Source: Spiribacter halobius (GTDB lineage Bacteria > Pseudomonadota > Gammaproteobacteria > Nitrococcales > Nitrococcaceae). From it: 64,000 nt of DNA. The DNA is taken from the NCBI RefSeq assembly GCF_020883455.1, contig NZ_CP086615.1:2542001-2606000 (forward strand). Direction: 5' to 3'. The notes below the pieces were generated by a model, which was given only the letters and a program-made list of their open reading frames with translations, was not told the origin of the DNA and searched no databases. Position numbers and translations under genes: made by a program. This document shows positions 46,757-64,000 of the stretch, piece after piece (the first letter of the stretch is position 1; each line of letters starts with the position of its first letter).

Positions 46757-49700
46757 CGTTCACCCTGCGCACGGGCGCCTGCTCATCGAGCCCTTCCGCG
46801 AACTTCAGGTCGAGGTTGTAGGAGACCCGCTCGCGAGCCCTCGCACGCTCCTCTCGGAACAGCGCCTCGACCCGCTCGCGATTGAGAATGCTCTTCTGCA
46901 GGTAGACTTTCTCCTTCAACTCACCGATGCCTTCGGGCGCCGGGATCTTGCTGACATCGATCAACATGTCGACGCTGTCGTGCAGCGGCCCCGAGCGCCC
47001 ATCCGGCAGCGCGAACACCATCTGCACGCCGAGCACCTCCGTGAGGTATTGGATAACTTCCTTGCTCCGGCTCACATCCACCTTCTCGAAGGTCTCATCG
47101 ATCATCACAAAGCGCAGATGGGTATCGCCCTGTGACCAGCCAAGCGCAGTCGCCAGGGCCGCAGATCGCACGATGTAGGAGGGCGTCTCCAGCTGCCCGC
47201 CGGAGCCGGTGCCATAGGTCTTCAGCGAGATGGGCTTGCGCTCCGAGTGGACAAAGCACTTCTCGATGTCGTAGGTCCGGTACTCGCGATAATCGGTCAG
47301 CCGCCGTAGCTCCTTCATGCCGCGATTGCGGTCCTGGTCGAGGAGCATCCCCTTCAGGCGATCGAAGATTGCCTCATCCTCCGGACTCATGCCTTCCTCG
47401 TCGAACAACAGGAGATTGCCCATCATCTGGCCCGGCTCGGCAAGGCGCTCGAAGAACTCGGCATAGCGGCGGTAGTCGCTGCGCCAGTTCCAGCTGAACT
47501 GGTAATACTCATCCCCGAACGTCTGCCTGCGAAGCTCTTGGTTCAGGGTGGTCAGCACGTCCTTGCCGCGGTTGATGCAGTTGTTCATCTTCAGGCAGAC
47601 GTCCCGAATGAACGTCTCGTTGAACCGACGGCTCGCGTCCTCAAGCTGCTCGTGGTTTTCGGCGAGGATGTGGTCGCGCAGGCTGGTGAGCGTAGCGCCG
47701 ATCTCCCGGTGCACCAGCGTTAGCTCGCGAAAAGCCTCAATTGCGCTAGCCTGGCTCGTCGCGCGCGGCAGGGCGACGCGCTTATCGTAGAGTCCGCAGC
47801 CGTTGAAGTGGGTGACTGACGAGGAGAGATTCGCGTAGAGCTGGGGCAAGCGCTGATCGGGCGGCACGGCAATCGCCCGTGTCGTGTCGTCGAGGGACTG
47901 GGCGATGCGCGCGAGGGCGCCTTCCCAGTCTCCTCCTTCGGCATTGATCCGGCGCATGGCCTCGATCTGCTCGCGGCACTCATCACGCCGGGTGGTGAGC
48001 TCCCGCAGCTTGTTGCCAGCCGCTGTCCGGCTATCGGCGTTCGTCTGCCGCTCCTGCCGGATTTCACCTCGGCGCCCCATGGCCTCACCGTGACGCTCGC
48101 GCGCGGCCGCGATCTCTTGATCAAGCGAATCGATCTCCCCCAGGATCTCCTCGACCCCCGAGAGGTCGAGCGCCTTCAGCTGTTGCTCGGTCTCCTCGAG
48201 CCCCATCTGCTCCTGGATGACCTCCTCGAACGGCTCGATCAGCTTCGGGCGCTGAACACTGTCAAGGGCCTGATTCCATAGCCGCGCACTTCGCATCCGC
48301 ACCTCGGCCTCGCGCTCCTCGCGCTCAATCTCCTTCAGGCGCCGGCGCTTGGCCTCGATCGAGCGCCGCCGAGCACCCTCGCCGAAGACGAGGTCGGATT
48401 CCTCCACGCGCGTAACGAACATGCGAAGGCTCGAGGAGGCGTTACCTTCGAGGGTAAGCCCGCGGGGCGTCTGCGTTAGCGCCTGACTGTCGGCCACCTG
48501 CACCACGTCGCCGAAATTCGCCCGAACCACCGCCTCGACCACCGGGTCGCTGAAGCGCATCAGGTGCACGATGGAGTCGGGCTTGGGCTCCCGCCCGGGG
48601 CGCTCGGCGAGCTCGCGCGCCCGCTTGCCCTGAATGATGCTCACACCCGGGCCAACACGGCGACGCTCGCGGTTGATCAGATCGATCGCCGCGGCCTCGA
48701 AGCGCTCCCCGACGATGATGTCGAAGCGGCGATTGCCGAAAAGGCCCTCGATAGCAAGCTGCCAATGTTCATCGCTCACCTCGATGTAGTCGCAGAGCAC
48801 CCTCGGCTCACACTCGGGCAAATTCTGCGACAGCAGTTCCAGCGCGCGCTGTGTCGAGGGGCGATAGCGCACACGGCCGCTTTGCTCGATCTGCTCAATT
48901 GCCGCCTCATGCTCGCCCGCCTCGCGCTTCAGGCCCTCGAGCGTGTCTTTGCACTCGAAGTAGCGCCGGCGGATCCCTTCCTGGTGATGAGCAAAGGCCT
49001 CCGCAACCCGCCCGTAGCGCTCCTCGATGGCCCGCACGCTCGACTCCTGGTCGAGCAGCGCCTCGTAGCTCTGCGACTCAATCAGGTCGCTGAGGGCAAA
49101 GCCACGCCAGCTATCCCCCTGGACCGCGCGGCTAAAGAGGCGTTGCCAGTCCGGCGGCTCCCCCTCCGCGGGGGGCAGCCAAGACTCAGGGCGGTCAACC
49201 TCCTTCGCCAGCGGGGCCAGGGCATCGTAAGCGCGATCACGGTGCTGATTACCGTCCTTCAGCCGTGCCACGGCGCGGTCAAGATTGGCCGCTTGCGTCT
49301 CCTGCTGGTTTGTGAGCCGGAGTTTCTGCTGAACGACCTCGGAGCCCCGGCTCTGCTGTGCCAGCGCCTCGCGGCGGTTGCCGAGCTGACGGAGCTGCGC
49401 GTCAAGCCCCCGAATCTCATGCTCGGTCTCCTGCATCGATTGCTCAAGGCGCTCGGCCTCCTCGCCGAGCATCAGGGCCCGGCGCTCGACGCAGCGCCAC
49501 TCACGCCAGGCATCCTCGAGCCTCACAAGCTCGCGATCGGCAACCGTTTCGATGGTTCTTCTCGCCGCGCCATCCGCAGCCTCGAGATAGCCAACTCCCT
49601 CCTTGATGCGCGCGGCCTCGTCGCGCATACGCTGGATGCTCTGCATCAGCTCCGAGACATCCTCAATCTGCTCCGAGAGGTCCATGGGCTCCAGGATCTC

Positions 49701-50414
49701 CTCGCGCACGAACTGATCGAGGTGCTGGATCGGCTTATAGACCATGAAGCGGGCGAACTGCTTGGCGGCATTCCTCGCCTTGGACTCGCTGATCGAGCGG
49801 AGCCCGCAGAGCGCTCCGTAGAGGCGTTGCAGGTACTCGGTCTTGCTCACCGCGGGTTCGATCGGGCGGTCGGGGTAGTTGAACCGCAGGTGAGCGGGCA
49901 GATCCTTGGTCGCCACGACCAGCCTCTCTCCCAATCGGCCCTCATCGGTCTGCGAGTCGGTCACATCCTCGAGCCCAAGCGGCTCGCCGCCCACGACCAG
50001 AAACAGCTCGTCCTCGGTGCGGGCAATGCGCTCGCCACCGTCCTGAACCAGCCGCGCGGTAAAGCCAGCAAGGGCGGTGAAGGGCTCACCCGCCTCGCCA
50101 GGCCCGGGCTCGAAGCGCCCGATGATGTAGGCATGCGCACCCTCCGGACGCGCGAAAGGCCCGTCATCGCAGCCGAGCACGTAGGAGGCTAGCGTGCGGG
50201 ACTTCTTCAGCCGGCTGCGCCCTTTCGCTTCGTCCTGGCCCGCATTGAACGTGCAGAGATCCTGGTGGCCAGCCGTCATCAGCGTCTGCATGGCATCGAG
50301 CATCGTCGTCTTACCGGCTCCGGTGCCGCCAGTCAGCATGACGCTTTGCGCGAGCTCATGGGTGCCATTGGGCAGGTTCGCCCAATTGAGGGTCGTGATG
50401 GTCCTAAGCCACAT
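46743..50414 (-). CDS. jetC: Wadjet protein JetC (SMC-like ATPase)
   Basis: The 1223-residue protein has Walker A GGTGAGKTT at residues 29-37, long coiled coils (about 280-480 and 680-860) around a hinge region, then the ABC signature region YGTGSGGQLETPSYIV and Walker B LRFVMIDETFEKVD near the end. It is the SMC motor that, with JetA and JetB, loops DNA. The ATG at 50414 overlaps the jetB stop by 11 bases. The size and motifs are normal for type I Wadjet. Confidence 0.95.
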   Translation of the reverse strand: MWLRTITTLNWANLPNGTHELAQSVMLTGGTGAGKTTMLDAMQTLMTAGHQDLCTFNAGQDEAKGRSRLKKSRTLASYVLGCDDGPFARPEGAHAYIIGRFEPGPGEAGEPFTALAGFTARLVQDGGERIARTEDELFLVVGGEPLGLEDVTDSQTDEGRLGERLVVATKDLPAHLRFNYPDRPIEPAVSKTEYLQRLYGALCGLRSISESKARNAAKQFARFMVYKPIQHLDQFVREEILEPMDLSEQIEDVSELMQSIQRMRDEAARIKEGVGYLEAADGAARRTIETVADRELVRLEDAWREWRCVERRALMLGEEAERLEQSMQETEHEIRGLDAQLRQLGNRREALAQQSRGSEVVQQKLRLTNQQETQAANLDRAVARLKDGNQHRDRAYDALAPLAKEVDRPESWLPPAEGEPPDWQRLFSRAVQGDSWRGFALSDLIESQSYEALLDQESSVRAIEERYGRVAEAFAHHQEGIRRRYFECKDTLEGLKREAGEHEAAIEQIEQSGRVRYRPSTQRALELLSQNLPECEPRVLCDYIEVSDEHWQLAIEGLFGNRRFDIIVGERFEAAAIDLINRERRRVGPGVSIIQGKRARELAERPGREPKPDSIVHLMRFSDPVVEAVVRANFGDVVQVADSQALTQTPRGLTLEGNASSSLRMFVTRVEESDLVFGEGARRRSIEAKRRRLKEIEREEREAEVRMRSARLWNQALDSVQRPKLIEPFEEVIQEQMGLEETEQQLKALDLSGVEEILGEIDSLDQEIAAARERHGEAMGRRGEIRQERQTNADSRTAAGNKLRELTTRRDECREQIEAMRRINAEGGDWEGALARIAQSLDDTTRAIAVPPDQRLPQLYANLSSSVTHFNGCGLYDKRVALPRATSQASAIEAFRELTLVHREIGATLTSLRDHILAENHEQLEDASRRFNETFIRDVCLKMNNCINRGKDVLTTLNQELRRQTFGDEYYQFSWNWRSDYRRYAEFFERLAEPGQMMGNLLLFDEEGMSPEDEAIFDRLKGMLLDQDRNRGMKELRRLTDYREYRTYDIEKCFVHSERKPISLKTYGTGSGGQLETPSYIVRSAALATALGWSQGDTHLRFVMIDETFEKVDVSRSKEVIQYLTEVLGVQMVFALPDGRSGPLHDSVDMLIDVSKIPAPEGIGELKEKVYLQKSILNRERVEALFREERARARERVSYNLDLKFAEGLDEQAPVRRVNDGAV

Positions 50415-51102
50415 CGTCGCCGCCTCCCTGCCCGTCTTCATCGCCGGTTGCCACCCAGGGGGCGTCTCTTGCGGCGTGGGGGGACGAGCCGTGTGCTTCC
50501 CGGGCGGCCTCGACAAACCCTTCCAGGGTGAGTGCGGTAATCGTGGGTCGAATGCGCACCAGCGCCTCACTCTCGAGTGAGTGGAACTCGATGACCCGGT
50601 AGTGCTGGATCGTCTTGAACAGCGCCTCGCGCTGCACCTTGCCCTCGGGCATACTCTCTCTCGCCACCATGCGGTAGCCGGTGTAGAGGTCCTCCAGGGA
50701 GACGAGGGCCTCGTCATTTTCGTCGGTCTCGCCGCCTCTCAAGGCCTCCTCGTAGCGCATTCGGCAAACCAGCAGCAGGGCGGTTGCATCCCGCGAAACG
50801 CGTTGCCGCAGGGCGGGCCGTCGCTCATCGGCCTCAGCCGCATAGGGGTTCTCCGCCCCCGGCGGATAGACGATCACGAACCTCTGATCCGTGCGGTGGA
50901 CTAGCGTCAGTCCCATGGCCTCGAAGAAGTCGGCTACCAGGTCGTCCATGCGCTCAAACGCGTCGTAGAGCTCACTCTCGCGGTGATTGTTCGGGTCCCG
51001 ATAGAGCACCTGGCGGCCTAGCAGGCGCTGGACGATGGCCTGGAAGCTCTCGAGGCTCAGACTCTCGCGGGCAAGCTCGCGCTTGAGGGTGTCGGTGATC
51101 AT
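50404..51102 (-). CDS. jetB: Wadjet protein JetB (KITE subunit)
   Basis: This is a 232-residue protein (DUF4194-type) with winged-helix repeats: LESFQAIVQRLLGRQVLYRD, FFEAMGLTLVHRTDQRFVIV and ALFKTIQHYRVIEFHS. KITE proteins bridge the kleisin JetA and the SMC heads. The start overlaps the jetA stop (ATGA). Confidence 0.93.
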   Translation of the reverse strand: MITDTLKRELARESLSLESFQAIVQRLLGRQVLYRDPNNHRESELYDAFERMDDLVADFFEAMGLTLVHRTDQRFVIVYPPGAENPYAAEADERRPALRQRVSRDATALLLVCRMRYEEALRGGETDENDEALVSLEDLYTGYRMVARESMPEGKVQREALFKTIQHYRVIEFHSLESEALVRIRPTITALTLEGFVEAAREAHGSSPHAARDAPWVATGDEDGQGGGDDVA

Positions 51103-52616
51103 CCAGGGCCTCCGCGTCGGGGTTCCACGACCTCGATCACGTAGTCACGCGTCTCGAAGTACTCGTTTGCCACGGTCGCATCGATCGGGCGGATCCGAAA
51201 GCGCCTGCCCCTTGCGCTGCTGCCCGCCACCTGACCCGCATGCAGGGCGGAGAGCAGTGAGGGCACATCGCCAATTTGCATCTCGCTGAGGCGGATACTC
51301 CGTCCGCCGGCAAGCTGCTCGACGACGAACTCCGATATGCTCTCGATATCTACCCGAAAGATCCGGGCAAGCTCTTGGCGCAGATCACGGTCGAGTATGG
51401 CCTCTCGGGTCGGCGCCTCGCTCGGGGCCATTCGATTACCGACCGGGGAGCGGGTGGCGCGTGGTCGAATGGCGATGGTTTGCGGGTCGATCAGCGCCAC
51501 CCGCATCAGGAGCACGCTGCTCCTCGGGTCATCGAGCACCCGTGTCACCGCCTCGTCCGGCAGCCGCGAGAGGCTGGCGACGTACTGCCCGACGCTCATG
51601 TCCTCGGTCTCGAAGGTAATCGCCCCCAGATGCCGCATCAGCGCGTCGGCACGGCGGACGAGGGTCCGCGTCTCACGGCGCAGTTCCGGGAGCTTGGCGT
51701 CGCAGGCCCGGTCGATGTGCTTCTCGATCCGATTGAGCACCCAGGCGAGTAGCACCTCGCGACCTTCCCTAAGCAGCATCGGGTAGTAGGCGCGAAGCTT
51801 TCGCTCGATATCCCGCTTGGTATCGTCGGGGAGGGTCCATACCCGCTCGATATAGCCCTTGATCTCCGAGCGATAGCGCTCCACGGAATCCTCATTGAAA
51901 CGCACCTCGATCTCCGGCACGAAGCGGTTGCCCATGTACTCGAAGAAGTCGAGCCCGGCCTCCCGCGCCTGCTCTGCGGTGTGCGTGACCGTTTCGGCGA
52001 AACGGCGCTTGCGCTCGGTCACCTCCTCGATGATGTCATTGAAGTCCCCGACGATATCGGAGGAGAGCTTGGCGGCGATCATCAAATCCGGAATCGAGAT
52101 TCGACCCTGATGCGCACCCTCGGTGAAGGTGCGCAAGTGCGCCAGCGTTGAGCGGGTGTTCTGTGTGCTCGTGATAATATCGTCGGCGTCCTGAGCAAAG
52201 AGAGCGGCGAACTGCCGCCCCCTAGGGGTGAAGCGATAGGCGTTGCGCATCGACCCGGGATCACTGTACTTCTCGATCCAGCCACAGTCCCTTAGCTCGC
52301 GCAGCATAGCGCTCGCCCTATCCTGCCGTGATATTGGCGCACCGACGCCTTCCTCGCACACCCCCTCGGGATCCAAAGTCACAGCATCTCTTAGGGCGAC
52401 GGTGAAACATTCAACTACGTCGCTCCGGCTTTGGTGATACTGATAGTCAGCTTCTGGCCCGTTAATGCGGAGATAGAGAGCCCGGATGCAGCGTGCCGCC
52501 CCATCACGGTTCCTACCCGAAAGCGGCCGAAAGAAATTTCCGTAGGGGTATTCGAAAAAAGACGTATCTGCGCTACGCAACTTCACTTCCCCGCCCTCTC
52601 TTTTACTCCCTGACAT
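51099..52616 (-). CDS. jetA: Wadjet protein JetA (kleisin-like subunit)
   Basis: I choose the ATG at 52616 after AGGAAG, giving 505 residues. The N-terminal part has winged-helix features (VVECFTVALRDAVTLD, MLRELRDCGWIEKYSDPGS), the middle is helical with the kleisin coiled coil (FNDIIEEVTERKRRFAETVT), and the C-terminus ends in a wing-like YFETRDYVIEVVEP. It matches JetA, the kleisin of the complex, and starts the four-gene jetABCD operon. Confidence 0.92.
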   Translation of the reverse strand: MSGSKREGGEVKLRSADTSFFEYPYGNFFRPLSGRNRDGAARCIRALYLRINGPEADYQYHQSRSDVVECFTVALRDAVTLDPEGVCEEGVGAPISRQDRASAMLRELRDCGWIEKYSDPGSMRNAYRFTPRGRQFAALFAQDADDIITSTQNTRSTLAHLRTFTEGAHQGRISIPDLMIAAKLSSDIVGDFNDIIEEVTERKRRFAETVTHTAEQAREAGLDFFEYMGNRFVPEIEVRFNEDSVERYRSEIKGYIERVWTLPDDTKRDIERKLRAYYPMLLREGREVLLAWVLNRIEKHIDRACDAKLPELRRETRTLVRRADALMRHLGAITFETEDMSVGQYVASLSRLPDEAVTRVLDDPRSSVLLMRVALIDPQTIAIRPRATRSPVGNRMAPSEAPTREAILDRDLRQELARIFRVDIESISEFVVEQLAGGRSIRLSEMQIGDVPSLLSALHAGQVAGSSARGRRFRIRPIDATVANEYFETRDYVIEVVEPRRGGPG

Positions 52617-52653
52617 GGGACTTCCTACGCTGGTTAGGAACTTTGTGCCCTTT

Positions 52654-52863
52654 CTAAACTTTAGGGAGCCGCAGCACAAAGGTGGTTACTACCAGGGAAA
52701 CCCAGAGAGCGCACGCGGCTGGCGCTAATGTTTCGCACCAAGTCAGCTGCGCTCCCGCCCTCAGGTCTGTCATCTCAACCATAGCGTGCAGGTAGAAGGA
52801 TCCCCCCAGGACAGGCAGGTTCTCCTGCCACGGCTTATCCGTACCTATCCTCGTCTCCGTCAT
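52654..52863 (-). CDS. Possible small membrane protein
   Basis: This is a 69-residue frame with one C-terminal hydrophobic stretch (APAACALWVSLVVTTFVLRL). It overlaps the end of the next frame upstream by 29 bases. The ribosome site is weak and no family is known, so it may be a chance frame. It precedes jetA on the same strand. Confidence 0.3.
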   Translation of the reverse strand: MTETRIGTDKPWQENLPVLGGSFYLHAMVEMTDLRAGAQLTWCETLAPAACALWVSLVVTTFVLRLPKV

Positions 52864-53404: not shown

Positions 53405-54865
53405 TCACCGCGCTCCCTGTCTCCGACCTCCCCGCCTTTCCGCCCTATTGGTCCCGTCCGGTCTTAACATTACACAATGAAGCAAAAGGCCGTTCCTCTC
53501 ACAGCCCTCAAGGGCAAAACACGGCGCGCATTCTGCCAGTCGATCCGCAGCGTGCGCTGACATCGACCTCTTTATCGTCGAATTTCTACACTCCACAGTA
53601 ATCGCTCTGAGAGTATTAATCGCGTAACCTCTGATGAGAACTTGGGTAATTCTTTCCAGCACTGCCGCCGTTTCCATCGCATCCCTCCTTCCTGAGGTGA
53701 ACGGATATAGAAGTGACGCCAAACGCGCCAGACTGGGGATTTCCGATGCTAAATGGTCACGTCTCCTTTCGTGAAGACTTACAATGGAGAAACCTTCAAC
53801 TACGAAGTTTATCCAATAGCGAAGCCATGTAGCGAGCGCAACATTTCCTTCTCCATCTTGACCGTCGTTCAACATCTTCTGCAAATTCCTAATTTGCTGG
53901 CACCACCACCCCAATGGCCACGCACTGTCATAGTCATCGCTGCCGATGAGCCGCTGGTACACTCGCGCAGCAGCTTGATGTGCGCTTTTTTCAGTACGTC
54001 TCGCTAACTGAGTAAAGACTTCGTCCTGTGACGCGCGCTTCAAATATTGCGATCCCTCCTCCTCCGTCGTAGCTAGCGTGCGGGTCGGCAACGTCCTATA
54101 CATCCCGACCCTTGTAACGGTATATCTGTACCGCCTGCCACTGAAACGTCGAAAATATTCGTAATCGCCGCTCATGCATGACCGCAAAGCTAAATCAGCT
54201 GTCTGACGTAGCTCGTCACGGCACGTGGGTAAATCGTCGAGAAAATACGTCATCGGGCGCGATATACAACGGGCGCCGAAATTTCTTGTGGCGTGCAGCC
54301 ACCCCAAGTACCTGTCGTTGCCTTGAGTAACGCTACCCCTCTCTGCAGTTGACTTCGAGAGTTGGACGTTCAAGATCCGATGCCCATCAGGGCAGCAACC
54401 GGGTTGCTGAACGGTGGTTGAGTTAATCGTGTACGGGATGGGTGCTTGACAAACGTGGCATGTGTGCCGCAACTCGATTTTATGCGCGGGACATTTTTTT
54501 ACCCAGTGCATTTGCATGACAGGAGAGTGATGCCCGTTGCGCGCGCAGATATCACAGAAGACAACGTTATCGCGGCAGAATCTCTTGGCCGAGATACGAT
54601 TATTTGAAATATCTTGCGGTAGGTATGCCGTGCAGAAAGCCCGCTCAAGTTGTTCTAGTCTGCGTCCTACGAGCCGTGAAAGCTTCTGCAGATCGAAAGG
54701 TTCCGGACTCCAGAGCTCGACTTCCGAGGACAGGGTGCTGCTATCCCGACGGACAATGCTATTCAGGTCACACAGGCTGGAGAGCCTGTTCCAGTAGGAA
54801 AGTTTTGCGCAAAGTGCCCAGAAGGAATCATCTGGGTAAGCGAGATTGTTACTCCATGCCAGCAT
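53405..54865 (-). CDS. TniQ-like zinc-finger protein
   Basis: This is a 486-residue protein. The N-terminus reads NLAYPDDSFWALCAKLSYWN, then Zn-finger pairs FCDICARNGHH, VKKCPAHKIELRHTCHVCQA and GCCPDGH, the layout of TniQ proteins that guide Tn7-like and Tn5053-like transposition. A Cys motif recurs at the C-terminus (ECAPCFALEGCERN). No tniA, tniB or Tn7 genes accompany it. The gene is AT-richer than its neighbours. It may be a transposon remnant or a TniQ-like protein used in another role. Confidence 0.8.
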   Translation of the reverse strand: MLAWSNNLAYPDDSFWALCAKLSYWNRLSSLCDLNSIVRRDSSTLSSEVELWSPEPFDLQKLSRLVGRRLEQLERAFCTAYLPQDISNNRISAKRFCRDNVVFCDICARNGHHSPVMQMHWVKKCPAHKIELRHTCHVCQAPIPYTINSTTVQQPGCCPDGHRILNVQLSKSTAERGSVTQGNDRYLGWLHATRNFGARCISRPMTYFLDDLPTCRDELRQTADLALRSCMSGDYEYFRRFSGRRYRYTVTRVGMYRTLPTRTLATTEEEGSQYLKRASQDEVFTQLARRTEKSAHQAAARVYQRLIGSDDYDSAWPLGWWCQQIRNLQKMLNDGQDGEGNVALATWLRYWINFVVEGFSIVSLHERRRDHLASEIPSLARLASLLYPFTSGRRDAMETAAVLERITQVLIRGYAINTLRAITVECRNSTIKRSMSAHAADRLAECAPCFALEGCERNGLLLHCVMLRPDGTNRAERRGGRRQGAR

Positions 54866-55464
54866 GATCGGACCTCACGCGCTCTCGAGCTGCCAGCCTC
54901 ACAAACGGAACAATAGGGCATGTATCTGAGTAAGGCGAGCGTTGGCGATAGTGGCGGTGGTCGAGGGTCCGAGGTAAAACCTGGCGCGGATGAGCAGCGT
55001 GACTTTTATTTTATCATTCAGTTGGTGGCGCCCCACCAATTATGATGTTTGGTTGTTTCAGACAACTAATTTTGAGGATTCGTTGTGCGCAATTGCGGCT
55101 TCGCAAATTGAATCACCGTGATGGCCGACGTAGAATCAGGTAGTTGAACGCTCGTAGGGTTATAATCTTCTCTTGGCTCCCCAGATGCCCCGCGCGGCTG
55201 CTCCGGATCGTCACCTCACGGTCAGCCCGAGCCGTTCGGTGCTTGCCTGACCGCGGTGTCGTGGCCGGCACGGTATGCCGCCGGCATGGCGCCTGCGGGT
55301 GACGCCAGCCTCTTCGTCGGGCGCCTGCGGCAACCATGCGTGAGAGGTCGTCAGCGGCTACACTTGCTGAGGACTCCACGGAAACCGCCGCCAGACGGGC
55401 ATCGCTGCCGCGCCGTGCGGGAGCGGGCATTGGCAACAGTCGGGCAAAGTCGACCGAGCCAGCG
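54866..55464. other. AT-rich intergenic border with inverted repeats
   Basis: About 600 bases without a supported gene, marking the right edge of the island. It contains the hairpin listed at 55022-55039 and the repeat TTGT-TTCAG-ACAA near 55052-55064. GC rises again near 55120. Confidence 0.45.
55022..55039. repeat. Perfect hairpin TTGGTGG-CGCC-CCACCAA
   Basis: Seven-base arms with a four-base loop in an AT-rich setting. No T-run follows on the plus strand; on the minus strand A/T-rich sequence follows, so a terminator or a transposon-end signal is possible. Confidence 0.45.
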
Positions 55465-57270
55465 ATGAGTGCTTGTGGACGAGATGGCGCACCTGGCAGC
55501 CGGAGCACGGCCGGGCGGGCCTCGGTGCTCCGGCACGGCCTGGCTGCCCTCGCCTGCGGCCTGTTGATTGGCGGCTGCGCGACCGACAGCCGCCAGCTCG
55601 AGGAAGCCAGCGCCGCCACCGAGGGCTACGAGGAGGTGGACGACCTCTTCATCGTCGACTGCCTGTTGCCCGGCCAGGTCCGCAAGCTCGGCACGCAGAC
55701 CTATTTCACCCCGCGTCGCCCGATCCGTACCACCGCCAAGGACTGCCGCATCCGCGGCGGAGAGTACGTCGCCTACGACCGCGCGGACTATCGCTCGGCG
55801 CTCAACGTGTGGCTGGGGCGCGCCGAGGCGGGTGACCCGGAGGCCCAGAACTACGTCGGCGAGATCTTCGAGAAGGGACTGGGCCGCGAGCCGGATTACG
55901 TATCCGCGGCGGAGTGGTACCGGAAGGCCGCCGAGCAGGGCTACGCAAGAGCACAGATCAATCTGGGCTTCCTCTTCGAGAAGGGGCTCGGGGTCGAGCA
56001 GGATCTCGCCACCGCCCTCAACTGGTACCGGCGCGCTTCGGGTGTCGCCGAAGATCAGCTGGTCTACCGCTCCGAGTACGACGACCGTCTGGACGAGCTG
56101 CGCGAGGAGCTGAGCACCGAGCTGGAGCGCTCCCGGCGGCAGGTGGATGCCCTCCAGGACCAGCTGGAGCGGCTGCGCGCCGAGCGCGACCAGCTGCAGC
56201 GCCGGCTTGAGGAAACCGCGGCGCGCAGCGCCGAGCCGGCACCGGAGGGTGACGTCGAGATCGGCGATATCGAGATCGTCGAGCCGACCTCCGACGAGGA
56301 GTCCGAGCAGCTGGCCGAGGAGCTCGCCGACGCGCGCGAGCGCATCGCGACCCTGGAAGAGTTGTTCACCCAGGTCCGCGAGGAGCGCGAGACCCTGGAA
56401 GCCAGGCTCTCGGAGCTCCCCCCGCGCCGCTCGGCGGAGGCACCGGACAGCGAGCCCGATCCGCTACGGCTGCCCGAGGGCACCACCGCGGAGGTCGACG
56501 GCATCGAGTTCGGTCGCTACTACGCGCTGATCATCGGCAACCAGGACTACCAGTACCTGGAGGACCTGATCTCCCCCATCAGTGACGCCGAGCGGGTGCG
56601 CGACGTCCTCGAGGAGAAATACGGCTTCAGCACCATCTTCCTGCCCAATGCGGACGAGGCGCGCATCCTGAACGCGCTCAACGACCTCTACGAGCAGGTC
56701 GGACCTAAGGATAATCTGCTGATCTACTATGCGGGCCACGGCAGCCTGAGCGAGCGCGAGCGACGCCAGCGAGGCTACTGGCTCCCTGTGAACGCGCGCA
56801 GGGAGCGCCTGGTTCACTGGATCAACAACTCGGTGATCAGTGATCATCTCGACCGCATCCGCGCACGCTCCATACTGGTCGTCGCCGATTCCTGCTACGC
56901 CGGCGCACTGGCGTCGGAGTCCAGCGCCCTGCTGCTGCCGAGCGGCGAAGGCGAGCTCGATCCGGAGACGATCCGCAACGGGCTGCAGCGCCGCTCGCGT
57001 ATCGTGATCTCTTCCGGCGGCGTCAAGCCCGTGCTCGACACCATCGATCAGGAGCATTCCCTGTTCGCGCGTTCTCTGCTGGAGGTGCTTCGCCGTAACG
57101 AGGGCATTCTGCGCGAGAACATGCTCTTCGCCCACGTGGCCGCCACGGTGCGACGCCGCTCCGAGGACCTGCCACTGCCCCAGACTCCCGAGATGCGGCC
57201 CATCCGTGCCGCGGGCCACGCTGGCGGGGACTTCTACTTCGTGCCGCTGTCGGATGCCCGGGAGTCCTGA
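55465..57270 (+). CDS. Caspase-fold (peptidase C14) lipoprotein with Sel1 repeats
   Basis: I use the ATG at 55465. The 601-residue protein starts with a lipoprotein signal ending LLIGGC, then two Sel1 repeats (AQNYVGEIFEKGLGREPDY and AQINLGFLFEKGLGVEQDL), a coiled coil (about 195-325), and a C-terminal caspase domain: YALIIGNQDYQYLEDLISP, LLIYYAGHGS (catalytic His) and LVVADSCYAGAL (catalytic Cys). The dyad is intact. It is probably anchored in the envelope, facing the periplasm. It leads a same-strand run with the 57280 gene and the ExbB/ExbD/TonB set. Confidence 0.92.
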   Translation: MSACGRDGAPGSRSTAGRASVLRHGLAALACGLLIGGCATDSRQLEEASAATEGYEEVDDLFIVDCLLPGQVRKLGTQTYFTPRRPIRTTAKDCRIRGGEYVAYDRADYRSALNVWLGRAEAGDPEAQNYVGEIFEKGLGREPDYVSAAEWYRKAAEQGYARAQINLGFLFEKGLGVEQDLATALNWYRRASGVAEDQLVYRSEYDDRLDELREELSTELERSRRQVDALQDQLERLRAERDQLQRRLEETAARSAEPAPEGDVEIGDIEIVEPTSDEESEQLAEELADARERIATLEELFTQVREERETLEARLSELPPRRSAEAPDSEPDPLRLPEGTTAEVDGIEFGRYYALIIGNQDYQYLEDLISPISDAERVRDVLEEKYGFSTIFLPNADEARILNALNDLYEQVGPKDNLLIYYAGHGSLSERERRQRGYWLPVNARRERLVHWINNSVISDHLDRIRARSILVVADSCYAGALASESSALLLPSGEGELDPETIRNGLQRRSRIVISSGGVKPVLDTIDQEHSLFARSLLEVLRRNEGILRENMLFAHVAATVRRRSEDLPLPQTPEMRPIRAAGHAGGDFYFVPLSDARES

Positions 57271-57279
57271 GCAGCGGCC

Positions 57280-57720
57280 ATGACAGCTCACGTGCGAAAG
57301 GCAACGGCCCGCCTGCTCGCCGCCTGTCTGGGGGCCCTGCTGGTCCTGACCGCGGCAGGTGCGCAGCCCGGAGAAGTCGCCGTGGAGCTGAACCGGCTGG
57401 ACAACCGGGACAACGGCAACTGCCGTGCCTACATGGTGTTCGAGAACGGCAGCGACCAGCACTTCTCCGTATTCCAGCTGGACCTCGTGCTGTTCGACGG
57501 GGACGGCATCATCGAGCAGCGCCTCGCGGTGGAGGCAGGGCCGCTCGATGCCGGCAAGACCGTGGTAAAGCTCTTCGACATCGAGGGGCTCGGCTGCGAT
57601 CGCATCGGCCGTATCCTGCTGAACGCGGTGATCGAATGTCGCACGGAGAACGGGCCGGCCGAAGGCTGCACCCGGCGGACCCGGGTCTCCGCCCGCACTG
57701 AGACCCCGTTCTTCAAGTGA
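57280..57720 (+). CDS. Small exported hypothetical protein
   Basis: This is a 146-residue protein with a Sec signal (LLAACLGALLVLTAAGAQ). The mature part is beta-rich (CRAYMVFENGSDQHFSVFQL, DLVLFDGDGIIEQRLAVEAG) with Cys pairs that could form disulfides. It looks like an immunoglobulin-like or C2-like fold, but I cannot name it. It starts nine bases after the caspase-fold gene. Confidence 0.8.
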   Translation: MTAHVRKATARLLAACLGALLVLTAAGAQPGEVAVELNRLDNRDNGNCRAYMVFENGSDQHFSVFQLDLVLFDGDGIIEQRLAVEAGPLDAGKTVVKLFDIEGLGCDRIGRILLNAVIECRTENGPAEGCTRRTRVSARTETPFFK

Positions 57721-57789
57721 CGCGCCCGGCGCCGCGGGCCGGCTCGATCCGACCAGCGGGGGGTGGCCGCCGATGCGGCAGGAGGCAGT

Positions 57790-58491
57790 ATGCCGGCACC
57801 TTCGCTCTCCGCCACCGCTGCACTGGACACCCTCCTCCGCCTGGTCGGCGCCGGCGGGACGGTGATCGTCCTGCTGTTGCTGGCATCGCTGGTGGCCGTG
57901 ACCATCGTGCTGCTCAAGCTCTGGCAGTTCCGCAGCGCGCGCATCGCAGACCACGCCACCCCGCGCGACGCAGCCGAGCTTTACGCGCGCGGGGAGCCCC
58001 GCGCGGCGCTCGAGCTGCTGGAAGGTTCGCCGCACCCCGCGGCACGCGTCCTGGAACGCACCATCACTGCCTGCCGTGATCCCCGTGTCCCTGCGGAGCA
58101 CGTACGGGAGGAGGCGGCCCGCCTCGGTGCGGACAGCCTGGAGAAACTTCGCAGCCATCTGCGGGCGCTCGAGGTGATTGCCACGCTGGCTCCCCTGCTC
58201 GGGCTGTTCGGCACCGTGCTCGGCATGATCGAGGCCTTTCGCGAGCTCGAGCTCGCCGGCAGCCAGGTGAGCCCTGCGCTGCTCTCCGGCGGCATCTGGA
58301 AGGCGCTGCTCACCACGGCCGTAGGCCTCGCCGTGGCGATGCCAGCCGTGGTCTTCCTCAACTGGTTCGAACGCCGCGTCGAGCGGGTCGCCCATGAGAT
58401 CGAGTTCACGGTCAGCCGTGTTCTCACCGCCCGGGCACCCGGTCGCACCCGCGAGGCGGGCGATGTCAGTTTCACGGCCACGGGCGCATAG
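57790..58491 (+). CDS. exbB: MotA/TolQ/ExbB proton channel protein
   Basis: The ATG at 57790 follows GGAGG. The 233-residue protein has a first helix (GGTVIVLLLLASLVAVTIVLL) and the ExbB core APLLGLFGTVLGMIEAFREL, then ALLTTAVGLAVAMPAVVFLNWF. It forms the pentameric channel that, with ExbD dimers, turns proton flow into work on TonB-type proteins. The three genes after it complete the motor. Confidence 0.93.
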   Translation: MPAPSLSATAALDTLLRLVGAGGTVIVLLLLASLVAVTIVLLKLWQFRSARIADHATPRDAAELYARGEPRAALELLEGSPHPAARVLERTITACRDPRVPAEHVREEAARLGADSLEKLRSHLRALEVIATLAPLLGLFGTVLGMIEAFRELELAGSQVSPALLSGGIWKALLTTAVGLAVAMPAVVFLNWFERRVERVAHEIEFTVSRVLTARAPGRTREAGDVSFTATGA

Positions 58492-58903
58492 GCCCTTCCG
58501 AATCGAACGACCGCAACGCCCGGCACGGGCGCTGATCAGCCTGACCCCGCTGATCGACGTCGTCTTCATACTGCTGGTCTTCTTCCTCCTGGCCTCCTCC
58601 TTCCTGGACTGGCGGGCGGTCACGCTCCAGCCGGCCGCTGGCGGCGGCAACGACAGCGCGGTCGCGGCGCTGCTGGTGGAGGTTCGGACCGGGGATCTGC
58701 GTCTGGGGGGACGCGTCGTCGACCGGCGCGCGCTGATCGCGACGGTGACTCGCCAGGTTGCCGGGAGCCCGGATCGCCGCATTCTCGTCCGGCCCGCAGC
58801 GGGCGTTCCGCTGCAACGCACCGTCGACGTCCTGGACGATCTGCGCCGGGCCGGCGCGCGGCGGCTCGCGCTGATCGACGGAGGGCAGGAGACGCCACCA
58901 TGA
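58463..58903 (+). CDS. exbD: ExbD/TolR biopolymer transport protein (active type)
   Basis: This is a 146-residue protein with one helix carrying the proton-accepting Asp: LTPLIDVVFILLVFFLLASS. A periplasmic domain follows (PAAGVPLQRTVDVLDDLRRAGARRLALI). The start overlaps exbB by 29 bases. Confidence 0.92.
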   Translation: MSVSRPRAHRPFRIERPQRPARALISLTPLIDVVFILLVFFLLASSFLDWRAVTLQPAAGGGNDSAVAALLVEVRTGDLRLGGRVVDRRALIATVTRQVAGSPDRRILVRPAAGVPLQRTVDVLDDLRRAGARRLALIDGGQETPP

Positions 58904-59310
58904 TCGGCCACCTGCGCACGGCACCGCCGCGCCGGCGGCAGGACAGTGGGCTGCTGCCGCTCATCAATGTCGTCTTCCTGCTGCTCGTGTTCGTGATGCT
59001 CGCCGGGCAACTGGCACCCCAGGACGTGTCCGGGATCCGGCCACCGGCATCCTCGCAGGGCACCCCGCCGGTGAGCGAGGCGGTGGAGGTCACCCTCGCG
59101 GCGAACGGTCGCCTGCAGCTGGCGGGAGAGCCCGTGACGGCGGACACACTCAGCGACCGCCTGGCGGCCCGTCTCGAGGCGCAGTCGACGCTGCGGGTCC
59201 GGCTCCGCGCCGACGCCCGCGTGGACAGCCAGCGCATCGTGTCCCTGCTCGATGTGGTGCGCGCCGCCGGCGCCCGGGAGCTCGAGCTGATGACGGTGCC
59301 GCGGCCATGA
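58900..59310 (+). CDS. Second ExbD/TolR protein with Asn in place of Asp
   Basis: This is a 136-residue protein of ExbD form: LLPLINVVFLLLVFVMLAG and a periplasmic domain ending VVRAAGARELELMTV. At the position of the conserved membrane Asp it has Asn (codon AAT). The start overlaps the first exbD stop by four bases (ATGA). It should pair with the Asp-bearing ExbD, giving an asymmetric dimer, or act as a structural partner. Confidence 0.9.
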   Translation: MIGHLRTAPPRRRQDSGLLPLINVVFLLLVFVMLAGQLAPQDVSGIRPPASSQGTPPVSEAVEVTLAANGRLQLAGEPVTADTLSDRLAARLEAQSTLRVRLRADARVDSQRIVSLLDVVRAAGARELELMTVPRP

Positions 59311-61064
59311 TCGAGCCCGCTCTGCGCCACTGGGTCGCCACTGGCCTGGTTGCCGTGGCCCTGCACGCGGCCCTGCTGCTCGCGCTCGGCGTGCTACCGG
59401 GCGGCCGGCCGGAGCGTCCGGCGGGAGAGCGGTCCACCCTGATCGAGCTCGGCGACCCGCTCGCCCGTGCACCGCCAGCCGCGTCCGAGCCCAGGGACCC
59501 TGCACCGGCTCCCCCGGCCGCTGCGCCCGCGGCGCAGCCGACAGTGGCTGCCGATACCGTGGCGCCCGAGGTCCCGGCGACACCGCCGATGCTGCCACCC
59601 TCGCCCGCAGGCGCGGCTGCCGACGCCGGGACCGCACCCACGGTGCCGGACACTGGCCCGGATCGCGCGCGCGTCAGCCCACCGGGATCCCCCACCGACA
59701 CCCCGCAGCCGCAGGCCGCGGAAGCCGTCACGCCCGATGACACGGCAGTCGCCAGTGCCACGGCAGCGCCACTCGCGGCGGCCGATCCGCCCGAGGGGGC
59801 GGCGACGGAAGTTTCCCCGCCGGCAGCGACCGCAACAACCGATGCCGGCGAGGCGCCTGCGACCCCCTCCCCGACGCCGAAGGCCGACAGGACTCCACCG
59901 CCCCAGCCGCTGCCTCCCGCGGCGGCCCCGGCGGGGGGCGTGACACGTCCGGCGCCGCCCCCGGATGCGGGCGCGGCCTCGAGTGTGGCCAACGCACGCG
60001 TTGCAGAACCGGACGTGGCTGCCCGGGATGCGACGCCGGCGGACACCGTGCGCGCGGCCGCCCCGGAGGCCAGAGCGGCGGCTTCGGTGGCCGCCCGGGC
60101 AGCGACCGCGCGCGCCGCGCCGCCCGAGGCCACGACGCCGGAGGTGACTCCGGAACCGAATGCGACGCCTGCTCGTGAAGGCCCTCCACCCGCGCCATCG
60201 GCGGCAGAGCGGGCGCCAGCGACCGTGAAGGCCACGACCAACGCGCTGCGGGCCAGGGACCCCGTCACGACCACGCCCCCACGCCCCGCGTCGGCGTCAG
60301 AGCCCGGGCGTGCAACCATCAGGGACGCTGGCAGCGGACCGGCGATCCGCGCTGCCGGTCCGAATACGCGCAGCCGCCAGCCGGATGCCAAGCCCGCGGA
60401 CACGCTCACGGGCCGTTTCACCGCCGCGCCGACCCCGAGCGTTGCCGGGAGCGAGCCGCTCGCGGCTGAAGATCCGGTGAGGTCCGCGAAGACCTCGACA
60501 ACGGCCGCAGCGCCTCGCGGCAATCCGCCGAGCGCCGCGACATCGCCCGGGGCGCCGCCCGCGCGCATTGCCGACATCCCACCGCCGGAGCCGGCAACCG
60601 CCGGACGAGCGGCCGACGTGCCGACTGAGCCGGCGCCCCCGGTGGCCGGCGACGGGATCACCCAACGGGCGGCGCTCGCCGCCACGCCGGAAAAGCGCGT
60701 GACCGCGCGCGGCCTCAGCGAGGGAGGATCCCGCCGGGATTCCGGCGAGGAGCGGGCAGCACGGCAATCGGCAGCGGAAACCTACCTCAGGCAGCTGCGG
60801 GAGCATCTGGCCGAGCATCGCGAGTACCCACAGGAAGCCCGGGCGAAGGGCGCGGAGGGCACGGTGATACTCGCGCTGGTGATCGGTCGCGGTGGCGAGG
60901 TGCTGAGCGCCCGGATCGACCGCAGCTCCGGCTACGCAGACCTCGACGGCGAGGTCCACGCAATGATCCACCGGGCCTCTCCCCTGCCGCCGATGCCCGA
61001 GGCACTGGCGCAGGAGCGCCTTTCCCTGCGCATTCCGGTACGCTTCCGCCTCGAGGATCGGTGA
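59307..61064 (+). CDS. tonB: TonB-like protein with very long Ala/Pro linker
   Basis: This is a 585-residue protein. One N-terminal helix (VATGLVAVALHAALLLALGV) lacks nothing obvious of the TonB His face (a His lies in ALHAALL). Then about 430 residues are dominated by Ala, Pro, Thr and Gly. The C-terminal TonB domain reads YLRQLREHLAEHREYPQEAR then GTVILALVIGRGGEVLSARI and GYADLDGEVHAMIHRASPLPPMPEAL. It would pull on an outer-membrane partner. The linker is far longer than in typical TonB (about 240 residues in total). Confidence 0.9.
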   Translation: MIEPALRHWVATGLVAVALHAALLLALGVLPGGRPERPAGERSTLIELGDPLARAPPAASEPRDPAPAPPAAAPAAQPTVAADTVAPEVPATPPMLPPSPAGAAADAGTAPTVPDTGPDRARVSPPGSPTDTPQPQAAEAVTPDDTAVASATAAPLAAADPPEGAATEVSPPAATATTDAGEAPATPSPTPKADRTPPPQPLPPAAAPAGGVTRPAPPPDAGAASSVANARVAEPDVAARDATPADTVRAAAPEARAAASVAARAATARAAPPEATTPEVTPEPNATPAREGPPPAPSAAERAPATVKATTNALRARDPVTTTPPRPASASEPGRATIRDAGSGPAIRAAGPNTRSRQPDAKPADTLTGRFTAAPTPSVAGSEPLAAEDPVRSAKTSTTAAAPRGNPPSAATSPGAPPARIADIPPPEPATAGRAADVPTEPAPPVAGDGITQRAALAATPEKRVTARGLSEGGSRRDSGEERAARQSAAETYLRQLREHLAEHREYPQEARAKGAEGTVILALVIGRGGEVLSARIDRSSGYADLDGEVHAMIHRASPLPPMPEALAQERLSLRIPVRFRLEDR

Positions 61065-61100: not shown

Positions 61101-62855
61101 CTACTGCCGGGCCTCCTGCTCCAGCCGCTGGTTGACGTGCTCCAGCGCATCGCGGATCGCCTCGTCACGGCTGCCGAGCTCGTGACGGCCAAGGGACTCG
61201 AGCGTCAGGCGCAGCAGCTCCAGCGAGTAGACGGTCGCCTCCGGATCGCGGGCGCGGGCGATGTAGCGGTCGATCACGTCGTTCATCCGCCGCTCCACGA
61301 GCGCCCGTAACCGTGACTGCTCGCGTCCCGGCACATCGGAGACCTGCTGCGCGCTCTCCCAGGCCTGCGCATAGGACTTGTGCGCCTGGGCCAGCTCGTC
61401 GTCGGCGAGATAGTCGTCGCCGCGCAGAATCAGGTCGCGGGAGTCCGACAGCGCGGGAGCAAGGTCATCGACACTCACGATGATGTTGCTCTCACGGATC
61501 GTGATCCACCAGGACGTAGCGGCAAATGCGGCCAGGAGCACCATTGCCGCCAGCACCGTACGCCGGATGCGGACCGGACGCTTGATGGCGTCCAGGAACT
61601 TACCGGCATCCGCGAAGCGTTCTTCCCGCCGCCAGGCCAACCCCCGAGCCAGCGCCCGGCTGACCCGCTTGGGCAGGCCGCGCGGCGGCGCCGGCCGCAG
61701 CCCCAGGCGCTCGGCCTCGTCGGCGGGCAGCTTGCGGCCACGCTCGTCCAGGAACGGATGCCGCCCGGTCAGCAGCTCATAGGCGACGCAGGCGAGCCCA
61801 TAGACGTCGTCCGCCGGCTCTGCCGCATTGCCGCGCAGCATCTCCGGACTGGCGTAGGCCGGAGTCACGGCACCGATGCTGCCCGGGTCGAATCGCGTGT
61901 GATCGCCCCTACCCTGCTCCGGGTCGCCGCGGTGGAGCGTCGCCGCGCGTGCGATGCCGAAGTCCAGGATCTTGACGTTGCCGCCCTCGTTCAGAAAGAC
62001 ATTGCCCGGCTTGAAATCGGCGTGGACGAAACCCTCCTGATGGGCATACGCGAGCCCCCGTGCCATGCGGTCGATGATGCGCAGCGCCTCCTTCGGCGGA
62101 AGGCCGAAGCCGCCACGGTCCCGGATGACCCCATCCAGCGGCCTGCCGCGGAGATACTCCATGCTGAGGAAGACCGTGCTCCCGTCGCGGTCGAAGTCAT
62201 GCACGGTGACCACGTTCGGATGCGCCAGCGTCTGCGCCTTTCTGGCCTCGCGCTGAAGCGCGATCAGTGCATCGGGATGCCGCCGGAAATCATCATTGAG
62301 CAGCTTGAGTGCCACGTAGGGATCGCTGTCCTGCGCTTCGACCTTGCGCAGATCACGCGCCCGGTAGACGGTGCCCATGCCGCCGTGACCGATCAGCTCC
62401 TCGAGCACGAAGCGCCCCTTCAGCACCCGTCCGGGCGCAACGCCCTCCTCCGCGTCCTCGGCCGCGCCGCTGGGCCCGGACGTTGGGGGCGCGCTGTCGG
62501 TGCCACCTGCGCCGTCCGGTCCCGACTCCGCTGCGGACGCGGTGCGAACCCGCGTGCGCTCCTCCCCCGTACCCCACGCCGCGGCCGTGACCCGGGTGCT
62601 CTCGGTGCCATCGGTGGACGACAACGGCGACGCCGATGGGCGCTCCGAATCGGCACCTTCGAGCAACGCCGCTCGCTGCTCCGCCGAGAGCGGGACGGTC
62701 CCGGCCAGCGCCGCCAGCAGATCGCTCCCGGACCGTCCGGTGGCGGCACTTGCGGATGCGAGCCGGTGGCGTGCCGCCGCGGTATCGAGCTCGCCGCGCC
62801 CGTACGCGGCGAGCGCCTCCTGCAGATGCGTGAGATCCGTCGCGGCTCCGCTCAC
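61101..62855 (-). CDS. Membrane Ser/Thr protein kinase (PpkA-like)
   Basis: The GTG start at 62855 follows GGAGG. The 584-residue protein has an acidic N-terminal segment, a kinase domain with the P-loop GHGGMGTVYRARD, catalytic Lys in VALKLLNDD, loop FVHADFKPGNVFL (HAD in place of HRD), ILDFGIARAA and YASPEML, then one helix (VLAAMVLLAAFAATSWWITI) and a periplasmic helical domain. It is paired with the PP2C gene upstream on the same strand, the usual kinase/phosphatase switch of T6SS post-translational control. Confidence 0.9.
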   Translation of the reverse strand: MSGAATDLTHLQEALAAYGRGELDTAAARHRLASASAATGRSGSDLLAALAGTVPLSAEQRAALLEGADSERPSASPLSSTDGTESTRVTAAAWGTGEERTRVRTASAAESGPDGAGGTDSAPPTSGPSGAAEDAEEGVAPGRVLKGRFVLEELIGHGGMGTVYRARDLRKVEAQDSDPYVALKLLNDDFRRHPDALIALQREARKAQTLAHPNVVTVHDFDRDGSTVFLSMEYLRGRPLDGVIRDRGGFGLPPKEALRIIDRMARGLAYAHQEGFVHADFKPGNVFLNEGGNVKILDFGIARAATLHRGDPEQGRGDHTRFDPGSIGAVTPAYASPEMLRGNAAEPADDVYGLACVAYELLTGRHPFLDERGRKLPADEAERLGLRPAPPRGLPKRVSRALARGLAWRREERFADAGKFLDAIKRPVRIRRTVLAAMVLLAAFAATSWWITIRESNIIVSVDDLAPALSDSRDLILRGDDYLADDELAQAHKSYAQAWESAQQVSDVPGREQSRLRALVERRMNDVIDRYIARARDPEATVYSLELLRLTLESLGRHELGSRDEAIRDALEHVNQRLEQEARQ

Positions 62856-62871
62856 GGCGCGGCCTCCGCCG

Positions 62872-64000
62872 TCATGCCGATCCGTCCAACACGTCCACGA
62901 CCACCGCGGTGGCGTTGTCCCGCGCTTCATTCGCAAGAACGCGGTCGAGGACGCGCCGGCAGGCCTCCGCACAGCTGTCGGCATCGAGCGCCGTGGCGAG
63001 ATCGGCATCGCTCAGCACACCGTGCACGCCATCGGAGCAGAGCAGGAAGCGGTCGCCCGGCAGGAGCTCCCCGAATCCCGTCTCGAGGGCGAGCGCCGAC
63101 CCGGATCCGACCGCGCGCGTGATCACGTTGGCCTGCGCGTGCCCCCGGGCGTCGTCCGCACTCACCTTGCCGCTGTCCACCAGGTCCTGCACGACACTGT
63201 GATCGCGGGTGCAGCGCTCCAGTGAACCGCCGCGCAGCCGGTAGATGCGGCTGTCCCCCGCCCACAGGTAGCCGCAGCCCGCCTCGCCGGCAAGCAGTGC
63301 CGCCACCGTGCTGGCGCTGTTGACGGCATCGAGGGGGCGCCCAGCCAGGTGCTGCAGGTGGGCGTGCACCTCGGCAAGCGCGTGCCGTGCACGATTGAGC
63401 CGCTCCTGGAGATCGTCGCCCGGCTCCACGGCGCGCAGCGCATCCACCACCATGCGGCTCGCCATTGCCCCCGCCTCCTGGCCTCCGACGCCATCGGCCA
63501 CCGCCCAGATGCCGTTTGCCGGCGACTCCAGGAACGCGTCCTCGTTGGCGTCGCGCACATGCCCCGGGTGGGTGAGCCCGCTCGAGCGCAGCCGTGGAGG
63601 CGATTTGAGGGCAGACGCGGTATCCGCCCGCGCAGCAGGCTGCCACCCAACCGAGAAGCACGACCAGCCATGGTGTTCCCACTGCCCGTCCAGGGCCGCG
63701 CTGAACAGCGCACCTTCCGGCAGTCCGGGGCACAGCGACCAGCATGGCCGCACCCGCCGGGAACCCTCCGACCACCAGAGACTGTATGGACCGCCGTGGG
63801 CGCGGGCGACGCCGCCCAGGACCCCCAGCATCGCGGGCAGCAGCCCCTCCAGGCCCTCCAGCTCACAGCACACCGCGCGCCCGTCGGCCGTCACCGGCCC
63901 CCCGTCGATCACCCCCGGCGCCAGCTCGGCACCCAGTGCCTCCACCTCGCGGTCGAACCGCTCCAGCTCGAAGGAATCCTCGCTGTCCAGTGCAGAGAGC
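62872..64000 (-). CDS. TagF-PP2C fusion phosphatase (partial, cut by window)
   Basis: The frame is open to the window end, so the N-terminus is missing. The first part (GPYSLWWSEGSRRV, CWSLCPGLPEGALFSAALDG) resembles TagF, a T6SS regulator. Then a full PP2C domain: THPGHVRDANEDAFLE, VADGVGGQEAG, WAGDSRIYRLRGG, LLCSDGVHGVLS and EARDNATAVVV, with the metal-binding Asp residues present. TagF-PppA fusions are known in other bacteria. It would reverse the neighbouring kinase. The kinase GTG starts 17 bases after its stop. Confidence 0.88.
   Translation of the reverse strand, partial: LSALDSEDSFELERFDREVEALGAELAPGVIDGGPVTADGRAVCCELEGLEGLLPAMLGVLGGVARAHGGPYSLWWSEGSRRVRPCWSLCPGLPEGALFSAALDGQWEHHGWSCFSVGWQPAARADTASALKSPPRLRSSGLTHPGHVRDANEDAFLESPANGIWAVADGVGGQEAGAMASRMVVDALRAVEPGDDLQERLNRARHALAEVHAHLQHLAGRPLDAVNSASTVAALLAGEAGCGYLWAGDSRIYRLRGGSLERCTRDHSVVQDLVDSGKVSADDARGHAQANVITRAVGSGSALALETGFGELLPGDRFLLCSDGVHGVLSDADLATALDADSCAEACRRVLDRVLANEARDNATAVVVDVLDGSA

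Follow-up and report, generated by a model that had tools for sequence, protein, structure and literature searches.

Several proteins encoded beside the serine/threonine (Ser/Thr) kinase PpkA act in the threonine-phosphorylation pathway of type VI secretion systems (T6SS). According to the available portions of the reports, RtkS of Serratia binds and stabilizes PpkA from the periplasm (PMC6082577), TssW of Acidovorax interacts with the periplasmic part of PpkA (PMC12607579), and TagQRST of Pseudomonas acts upstream of PpkA (PMC5995506). Here we describe a caspase-Sel1 protein encoded at one border of the only T6SS cluster of Spiribacter halobius (NZ_CP086615.1; genome 4.17 Mb, single contig). 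The window analysed is a stretch of 64,000 nucleotides of this contig (G000:C1:2542001-2606000). We propose that the protein, a predicted lipoprotein, is an envelope partner of a transmembrane (TM) Ser/Thr kinase, acting here in T6SS threonine-phosphorylation control, and that the Ton-type motor encoded behind it is a later accessory. Judged from sequence, we hold this reading to be about 45% probable.

The locus resembles the known pathway in encoding a TM kinase, a TagF-PP2C fusion, Fha and an exported protein beside the kinase. Fusions of TagF and PppA are known, and the domain order reported for Agrobacterium, as far as the excerpted source goes, is that of the window protein (PMC5995506). 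It differs in that the candidate input is a Sel1-caspase and in its Ton-type motor, which does not figure in the available parts of the descriptions of known pathways; the likeness of the caspase to RtkS, TssW and TagR is one of gene position only. With metacaspases and orthocaspases the protein shares a C14 domain with a His/Cys dyad, and Sel1 is a known partner domain of prokaryotic caspases, reported for 6.0% of sequences in the portion of the survey available (PMC3501461). Its family is set apart from them by a conserved N-terminal block (VDCLLPGQ ... DC.IRGGEYVAYDRA) and by frequent kinase and autotransporter neighbours. Pseudo-orthocaspases lacking the dyad are also known, the accessible text naming a Tyr/Ser form (PMC6426788), whereas in this family Cys is replaced by Leu, Val, Ser or Ala. 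No description of a caspase linked to a T6SS, PpkA, a Ton motor or an autotransporter was found in open-access titles and abstract openings, weak evidence that takes in few subscription journals; nor was a kinase-caspase-autotransporter module found described in the open-access literature.

The caspase-Sel1 protein and the adjoining T6SS cluster

55465..57270, + strand: Sel1-coiled-coil-caspase (C14) protein, predicted lipoprotein, His425/Cys477 intact (numbering from 55465); from Pfam, motifs and model
61101..63008, - strand: Ser/Thr kinase, PpkA-like, one TM segment at 486-504, C-terminal part presumably periplasmic, true start possibly inside the open reading frame (ORF); from Pfam
62872..64000, - strand: TagF-PP2C fusion of 501 amino acids (aa; L034:1872-3377), extending past the window end; from Pfam

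The caspase ORF, for which an alternative in-frame ATG lies at 55336, carries a Peptidase_C14 domain (73.3 bits, cut-off 21.4) and a Sel1 match (67.3 bits) in Pfam. The motifs YAGHG and DSCYAG keep the His/Cys dyad intact, and the AlphaFold2 model (mean pLDDT 83.2) yields Foldseek matches to MALT1 and metacaspases (best E 4.7e-10). By domain, dyad and modelled fold the protein is a member of Peptidase C14 and a candidate protease. Localization calls, here and below, come from sequence motifs; for this protein the motif is a lipobox, LLIGGC-A, the Cys of which is invariant across eight close orthologs.

The kinase gene is convergent with the last gene of the caspase strand, tonB, at a distance of 36 bp, and is itself the last gene of the T6SS block. 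Upstream of it on the minus strand follow genes for TagF-PP2C, TssM, TssL with OmpA, TssK, TssJ, Fha, ClpV, TssG and TssF, and farther along those for TssE, Hcp, TssC, TssB, TssA and VgrG. The whole genome gives one TssK match and three Pkinase matches, of which the neighbouring kinase is the best. The caspase-motor operon thus stands at one border of the genome's only T6SS cluster, and this cluster holds the threonine-phosphorylation set of TM kinase, TagF-PP2C and Fha. TagQRST proteins were not named among the scanned cluster proteins by general scans, no dedicated search having been made. The cluster also encodes, between Fha and ClpV (L034:11651-11932), a 93-aa protein that lacks a Pfam match and is 77-85% identical in G004 and G037.

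Among 59 related genomes that were searched, seven (G002, G004, G009, G029, G037, G049 and G053) encode full-length caspase orthologs, with 61-73% identity. The caspase gene has those for the kinase, TagF-PP2C and TssM as neighbours in seven of the eight close orthologs, the window included (the TagF-PP2C of G037 was shown by tblastn); they were not found on the 12.2-kb contig of G053.

Gene neighbours across the caspase family

A genome_contigs scan (84,980 species by the tool's description) returned 357 caspase relatives, of which the best 80, a non-random sample, were analysed. Contigs were often short, with less than 5 kb on one or both sides at 35 of the 80 loci, and gene calls outside the window were made by a simple, crude in-house procedure. 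Within three genes of the caspase a kinase was found at 53 of the 80 loci, against one match among 484 more distant genes and none among the 230 control genes (taken from the 17 loci of the motor survey described below). An alpha/beta hydrolase lay equally close at 34 of the 80. When the count is limited to the 45 loci flanked by 5 kb or more on each side, 38 have a kinase within 5 kb, 19 a hydrolase and 44 one or the other. The most constant neighbour being a kinase whose C-terminal part presumably faces outward (57 of 61 caspase-neighbour kinases carry a TM segment), the simplest view is that the exported caspase protein is its envelope partner.

An autotransporter-like gene occurs within 3 kb of the caspase at 37 of the 80 loci (e.g. 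L071:11688-12998, L109:11573-13045 and L102:7468-9894). Such genes make up 28 of the 144 genes adjacent to the caspase compared with seven of the 737 others (p = 2e-17, a value that overstates the contrast because the rows are related and three of the matches are seeds of the model used). The Pfam Autotransporter domain was confirmed in these three seeds. The only PF03797 Autotransporter match in the Spiribacter genome (L164:14965-17154) lies past the T6SS genes, on the side away from the caspase; G029 and G037 carry an autotransporter-like gene beyond Hcp and G049 one adjoining the caspase, and none was found in the searched stretches of G002, G004, G009 and G053. A longer caspase paralog of G049 (L045:9861-12614), with its dyad motifs intact, is itself directly preceded by an autotransporter-like gene. 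At least two T6SS genes were called at 13 of the 80 loci, which are spread over several branches. Kinase and autotransporter, and in several lineages also the T6SS, accompany the caspase more constantly than the motor does; they fell outside the sequence-only reading of this stretch, which had centred on caspase and motor.

Losses of the catalytic dyad

The dyad was surveyed in 81 rows, namely the 80 loci and the window (the row for L068 is a fragment of the caspase ORF). Its absences, which include four of the eight close orthologs, fall in two clades. The six rows of the clade near the window (L046, L047, L049, L051, L052 and, from the alignment of close orthologs, G037) have Leu or Val for Cys, L049 also Tyr for His, and the second clade (L120, L122 and L124) has Ser or Ala for Cys, with Trp for His in two members. 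The Cys-less proteins of G029 (L046) and G053 (L049) are 58-66% identical to the window protein, and because they are so well kept in sequence, the caspase protein probably has some function without the Cys. If the proposed role as a kinase partner is right, active and Cys-less members form a natural set with which scaffold and protease functions could be separated.

The Ton-type motor and the small exported protein

57280..57720, + strand: small exported protein, predicted beta-sandwich, Cys 48, 106, 120 and 130 (window numbering) invariant; from model and alignment
57763..58491, + strand: channel protein of the ExbB/TolQ/MotA family, start possibly at 57790; from Pfam
58463..58903, + strand: ExbD1, transmembrane Asp present; from Pfam and alignment
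58900..59310, + strand: ExbD2, Asn at the transmembrane position; from Pfam and alignment
59307..61064, + strand: TonB with N-terminal TM segment at 12-30, long Ala/Pro-rich middle and TonB_C; from Pfam

Together with the caspase gene these form an operon-like stretch on one strand (55465-61064), in the order caspase, small protein, ExbB, ExbD1, ExbD2 and TonB. The successive junctions are a gap of 9 nucleotides (nt), one of 42 or 69 nt depending on the ExbB start, an overlap of 29 nt and two 4-nt ATGA overlaps. The sequence-only reading had described a caspase with intact dyad, a small exported protein, ExbB, two ExbDs and TonB on one strand with short gaps, and this held in full: all six frames lie as it had placed them, with gaps of at most 69 nt. 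It had also called the motor complete. ExbB, ExbD1, ExbD2 and TonB_C do all score above their Pfam cut-offs, whereas ExbD2 has Asn in place of the transmembrane Asp. TonB has 139 Ala and 98 Pro among its 585 aa. ExbB falls below the curated equivalog cut-offs (65.2 against 206.2 for the ExbB model, 81.3 against 221 for TolQ), as do the ExbDs with the curated ExbD/TolR models, and by these scores the motor is a relative of ExbBD and TolQR rather than a classical member of either.

The small protein matched no sequence in Pfam, PADLOC, NCBIfam or PDB. Its model is a beta-sandwich (mean pLDDT 92.4), and the best fold match, to IrmA (TMq 0.54), is weak and generic and says little about function; its four Cys residues are invariant in 16 aligned homologs. 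Across 12 cassettes the transmembrane Asp of ExbD1 is always present, and the corresponding ExbD2 residue is Asn in nine and Ser in three. We infer that an ExbB ring would surround an ExbD1/ExbD2 pair with a single proton site. With a live ExbD paired with a dead one in all 12, these cassettes offer a natural means of testing the number of proton sites that a motor of this kind needs.

The described cluster nearest to this arrangement is tonB-exbB-exbD1-exbD2 of Xanthomonas campestris, which likewise has one ExbB, two ExbDs and one TonB, and in which ExbD2 is not required for iron uptake according to the accessible part of the report (PMC3551730). Compared with that description, so far as available, the present cassette differs in including the small beta-sandwich protein and an ExbD2 without the transmembrane Asp. 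ZorA of the Zorya system (ZorAB motor) is also of the MotA/ExbB family; the window ExbB, in contrast, reaches 15.1 with the ZorA2 model, whose cut-off is 700, and no other Zorya model matched among the 10 proteins scanned. Anti-phage defence was considered for the operon and rejected, PADLOC giving only a weak caspase match (31.5 bits), many generic kinase matches and a weak ZorA match (19.3 bits).

The motor stands beside the caspase in three further genomes, a recurrence that goes beyond chance: G004 has the arrangement of the window, G029 a convergent and G053 a divergent one (on its 12.2-kb contig, the end of which cuts the motor within ExbB). The linkage thus spans four genera in three arrangements, with caspase and motor co-directional in two of the four (the window and G004). 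Among the 80 surveyed caspase loci, 35 of them with short flanks, the motor was seen at these three and not at the other 77, and ExbB lay within three genes of the caspase at one. In a tree of joined ExbB, ExbD1, ExbD2 and small-protein sequences, the four caspase-linked motors form one clade (99/98), which splits into the window with G004 and G029 with G053, compatibly with the caspase tree. Mapped on that tree, motor presence needs at least two changes and fits either a single gain with a single loss or two separate gains. The sequence-only reading was to count as refuted if the two were neighbours in no other genome, which is not the case.

The cassette also exists without the caspase. In a survey of 369 genomes drawn from the class and of the 59 relatives, the small protein was found in 11 and 10 genomes respectively. 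Its matches gave 17 loci, in the Spiribacter and other genomes, nine of which have ExbB, ExbD1 and ExbD2 adjoining and no caspase match on the stretch searched. The other eight (L151, L152, L154, L160 and L161 among them) show no matched motor gene nearby, so the small protein is not a strict marker of the motor. One cassette of ExbB, ExbD1, ExbD2, TonB and the small protein is a second copy in the Spiribacter genome itself (L147:6065-9111 = G000:C1:2083065-2086111), with the small gene last and no caspase or T6SS match within the 18 kb searched. The small gene may thus stand first or last in a cassette. No copy of the small protein was found in the genomes of G002, G009, G037 and G049, all of which bear the caspase.

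Proposed role and alternatives

We propose that there is in Gammaproteobacteria a module of kinase and caspase, often joined by an alpha/beta hydrolase and an outer-membrane autotransporter, which in the lineage of the window sits inside a T6SS cluster, where the kinase would most likely be the PpkA of a pathway of kinase, TagF-PP2C and Fha. The lipoprotein may bind the periplasmic part of the kinase, either with its Sel1 repeats or with its coiled coil, and so tune the kinase in the manner of RtkS, TagR or TssW, a location and a form of T6SS control suggested by gene content. A scaffold role would be basic; most members would have retained proteolysis and two clades lost it. The motor would be a separate Ton-type cassette that was acquired next to the caspase on a single occasion. 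In the window it may share the caspase transcript and may apply the proton-motive force to the same envelope complex. The autotransporter is possibly the outer-membrane end of the module, and the hydrolase possibly a further envelope enzyme. Several results weigh against this proposal. His and Cys are both kept in 73 of the 81 rows, so that proteolysis is probably important to most family members. At 27 of the 80 loci, in a set with many short contigs, no kinase was seen within three genes of the caspase. Twelve of 23 hand-picked caspase-bearing genomes, of unstated completeness, lack a TssK match, and the kinase-caspase module is therefore not dependent on a T6SS. A lipobox-like motif occurs in only 43 of the 81 rows (by a crude pattern, whose match in the window protein is not the real lipobox), which means that a lipid anchor is no general trait of the family. 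If the proposal is correct, bacterial caspases would gain a role that can be tested, that of partnering Ser/Thr kinases in the envelope, and the PpkA inputs of halophilic and marine Gammaproteobacteria would include a new type.

The motor may instead be no more than an orphan cassette of the common Ton type that came to lie at the T6SS border and works alone, its position behind the caspase being functionally meaningless. We regard this as possible though somewhat doubtful. Nine cassettes lie on searched stretches without a caspase match, one of them in the same genome (for G384 the contig is only 3 kb), the place of the small gene differs between first and last, and the lack of the small protein in four caspase-bearing genomes indicates that the link is not required. 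However, the linked motors form a single clade, split compatibly with the caspase tree, their adjacency to the caspase outlasted rearrangement, and in the window a gap of only 9 nt follows the caspase. The sequence-only reading had assigned the motor a direct part in proteolysis, as a motor-linked switch in which proton-driven work would activate the envelope caspase or present a substrate to it. The dyad is indeed intact in the window and G004, the two genomes in which caspase and motor are co-directional. Nevertheless, we now consider such a switch very unlikely: two of the four linked genomes keep the motor with a caspase that has lost its Cys (G029 and G053, the latter without the His too), orientation varies, the motor also occurs apart from the caspase, and it was not seen at 77 of the 80 related loci, 71 of which keep the dyad. 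As a whole, that earlier interpretation is partly supported.

The frequency of autotransporter-like genes next to the caspase, seeds of the model included, and the location of the sole PF03797 match of the Spiribacter genome beyond the T6SS genes would also suit a periplasmic protease that processes the adjoining autotransporter, with the kinase and T6SS links secondary. This role is improbable, given that G029, G037 and G049, with a Cys-less caspase, still have an autotransporter-like gene either close to it or past the T6SS genes, whereas none was found in the searched stretches of the dyad-intact G002, G004 and G009, nor in that of G053. A bolder extension of the envelope-partner proposal is that the autotransporter, the periplasmic caspase or pseudocaspase and the Ton-type motor with its live and dead ExbDs jointly gate the PpkA kinase, and hence T6SS firing. 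We rate this a long shot. Were it true, such a unit would be, to our knowledge, the first regulator of a T6SS to have an ion-driven motor of its own.

Other features of the window

Upstream of the operon, PADLOC identifies a Wadjet JetC gene on the minus strand (46743-50717), with neighbouring genes at 45587-46756 and 50404-52679. Between the JetC neighbourhood and the caspase operon, the gene at 53405-54865 has a weak TniQ match and a low third-position GC content (0.56), possibly the trace of a mobile element.

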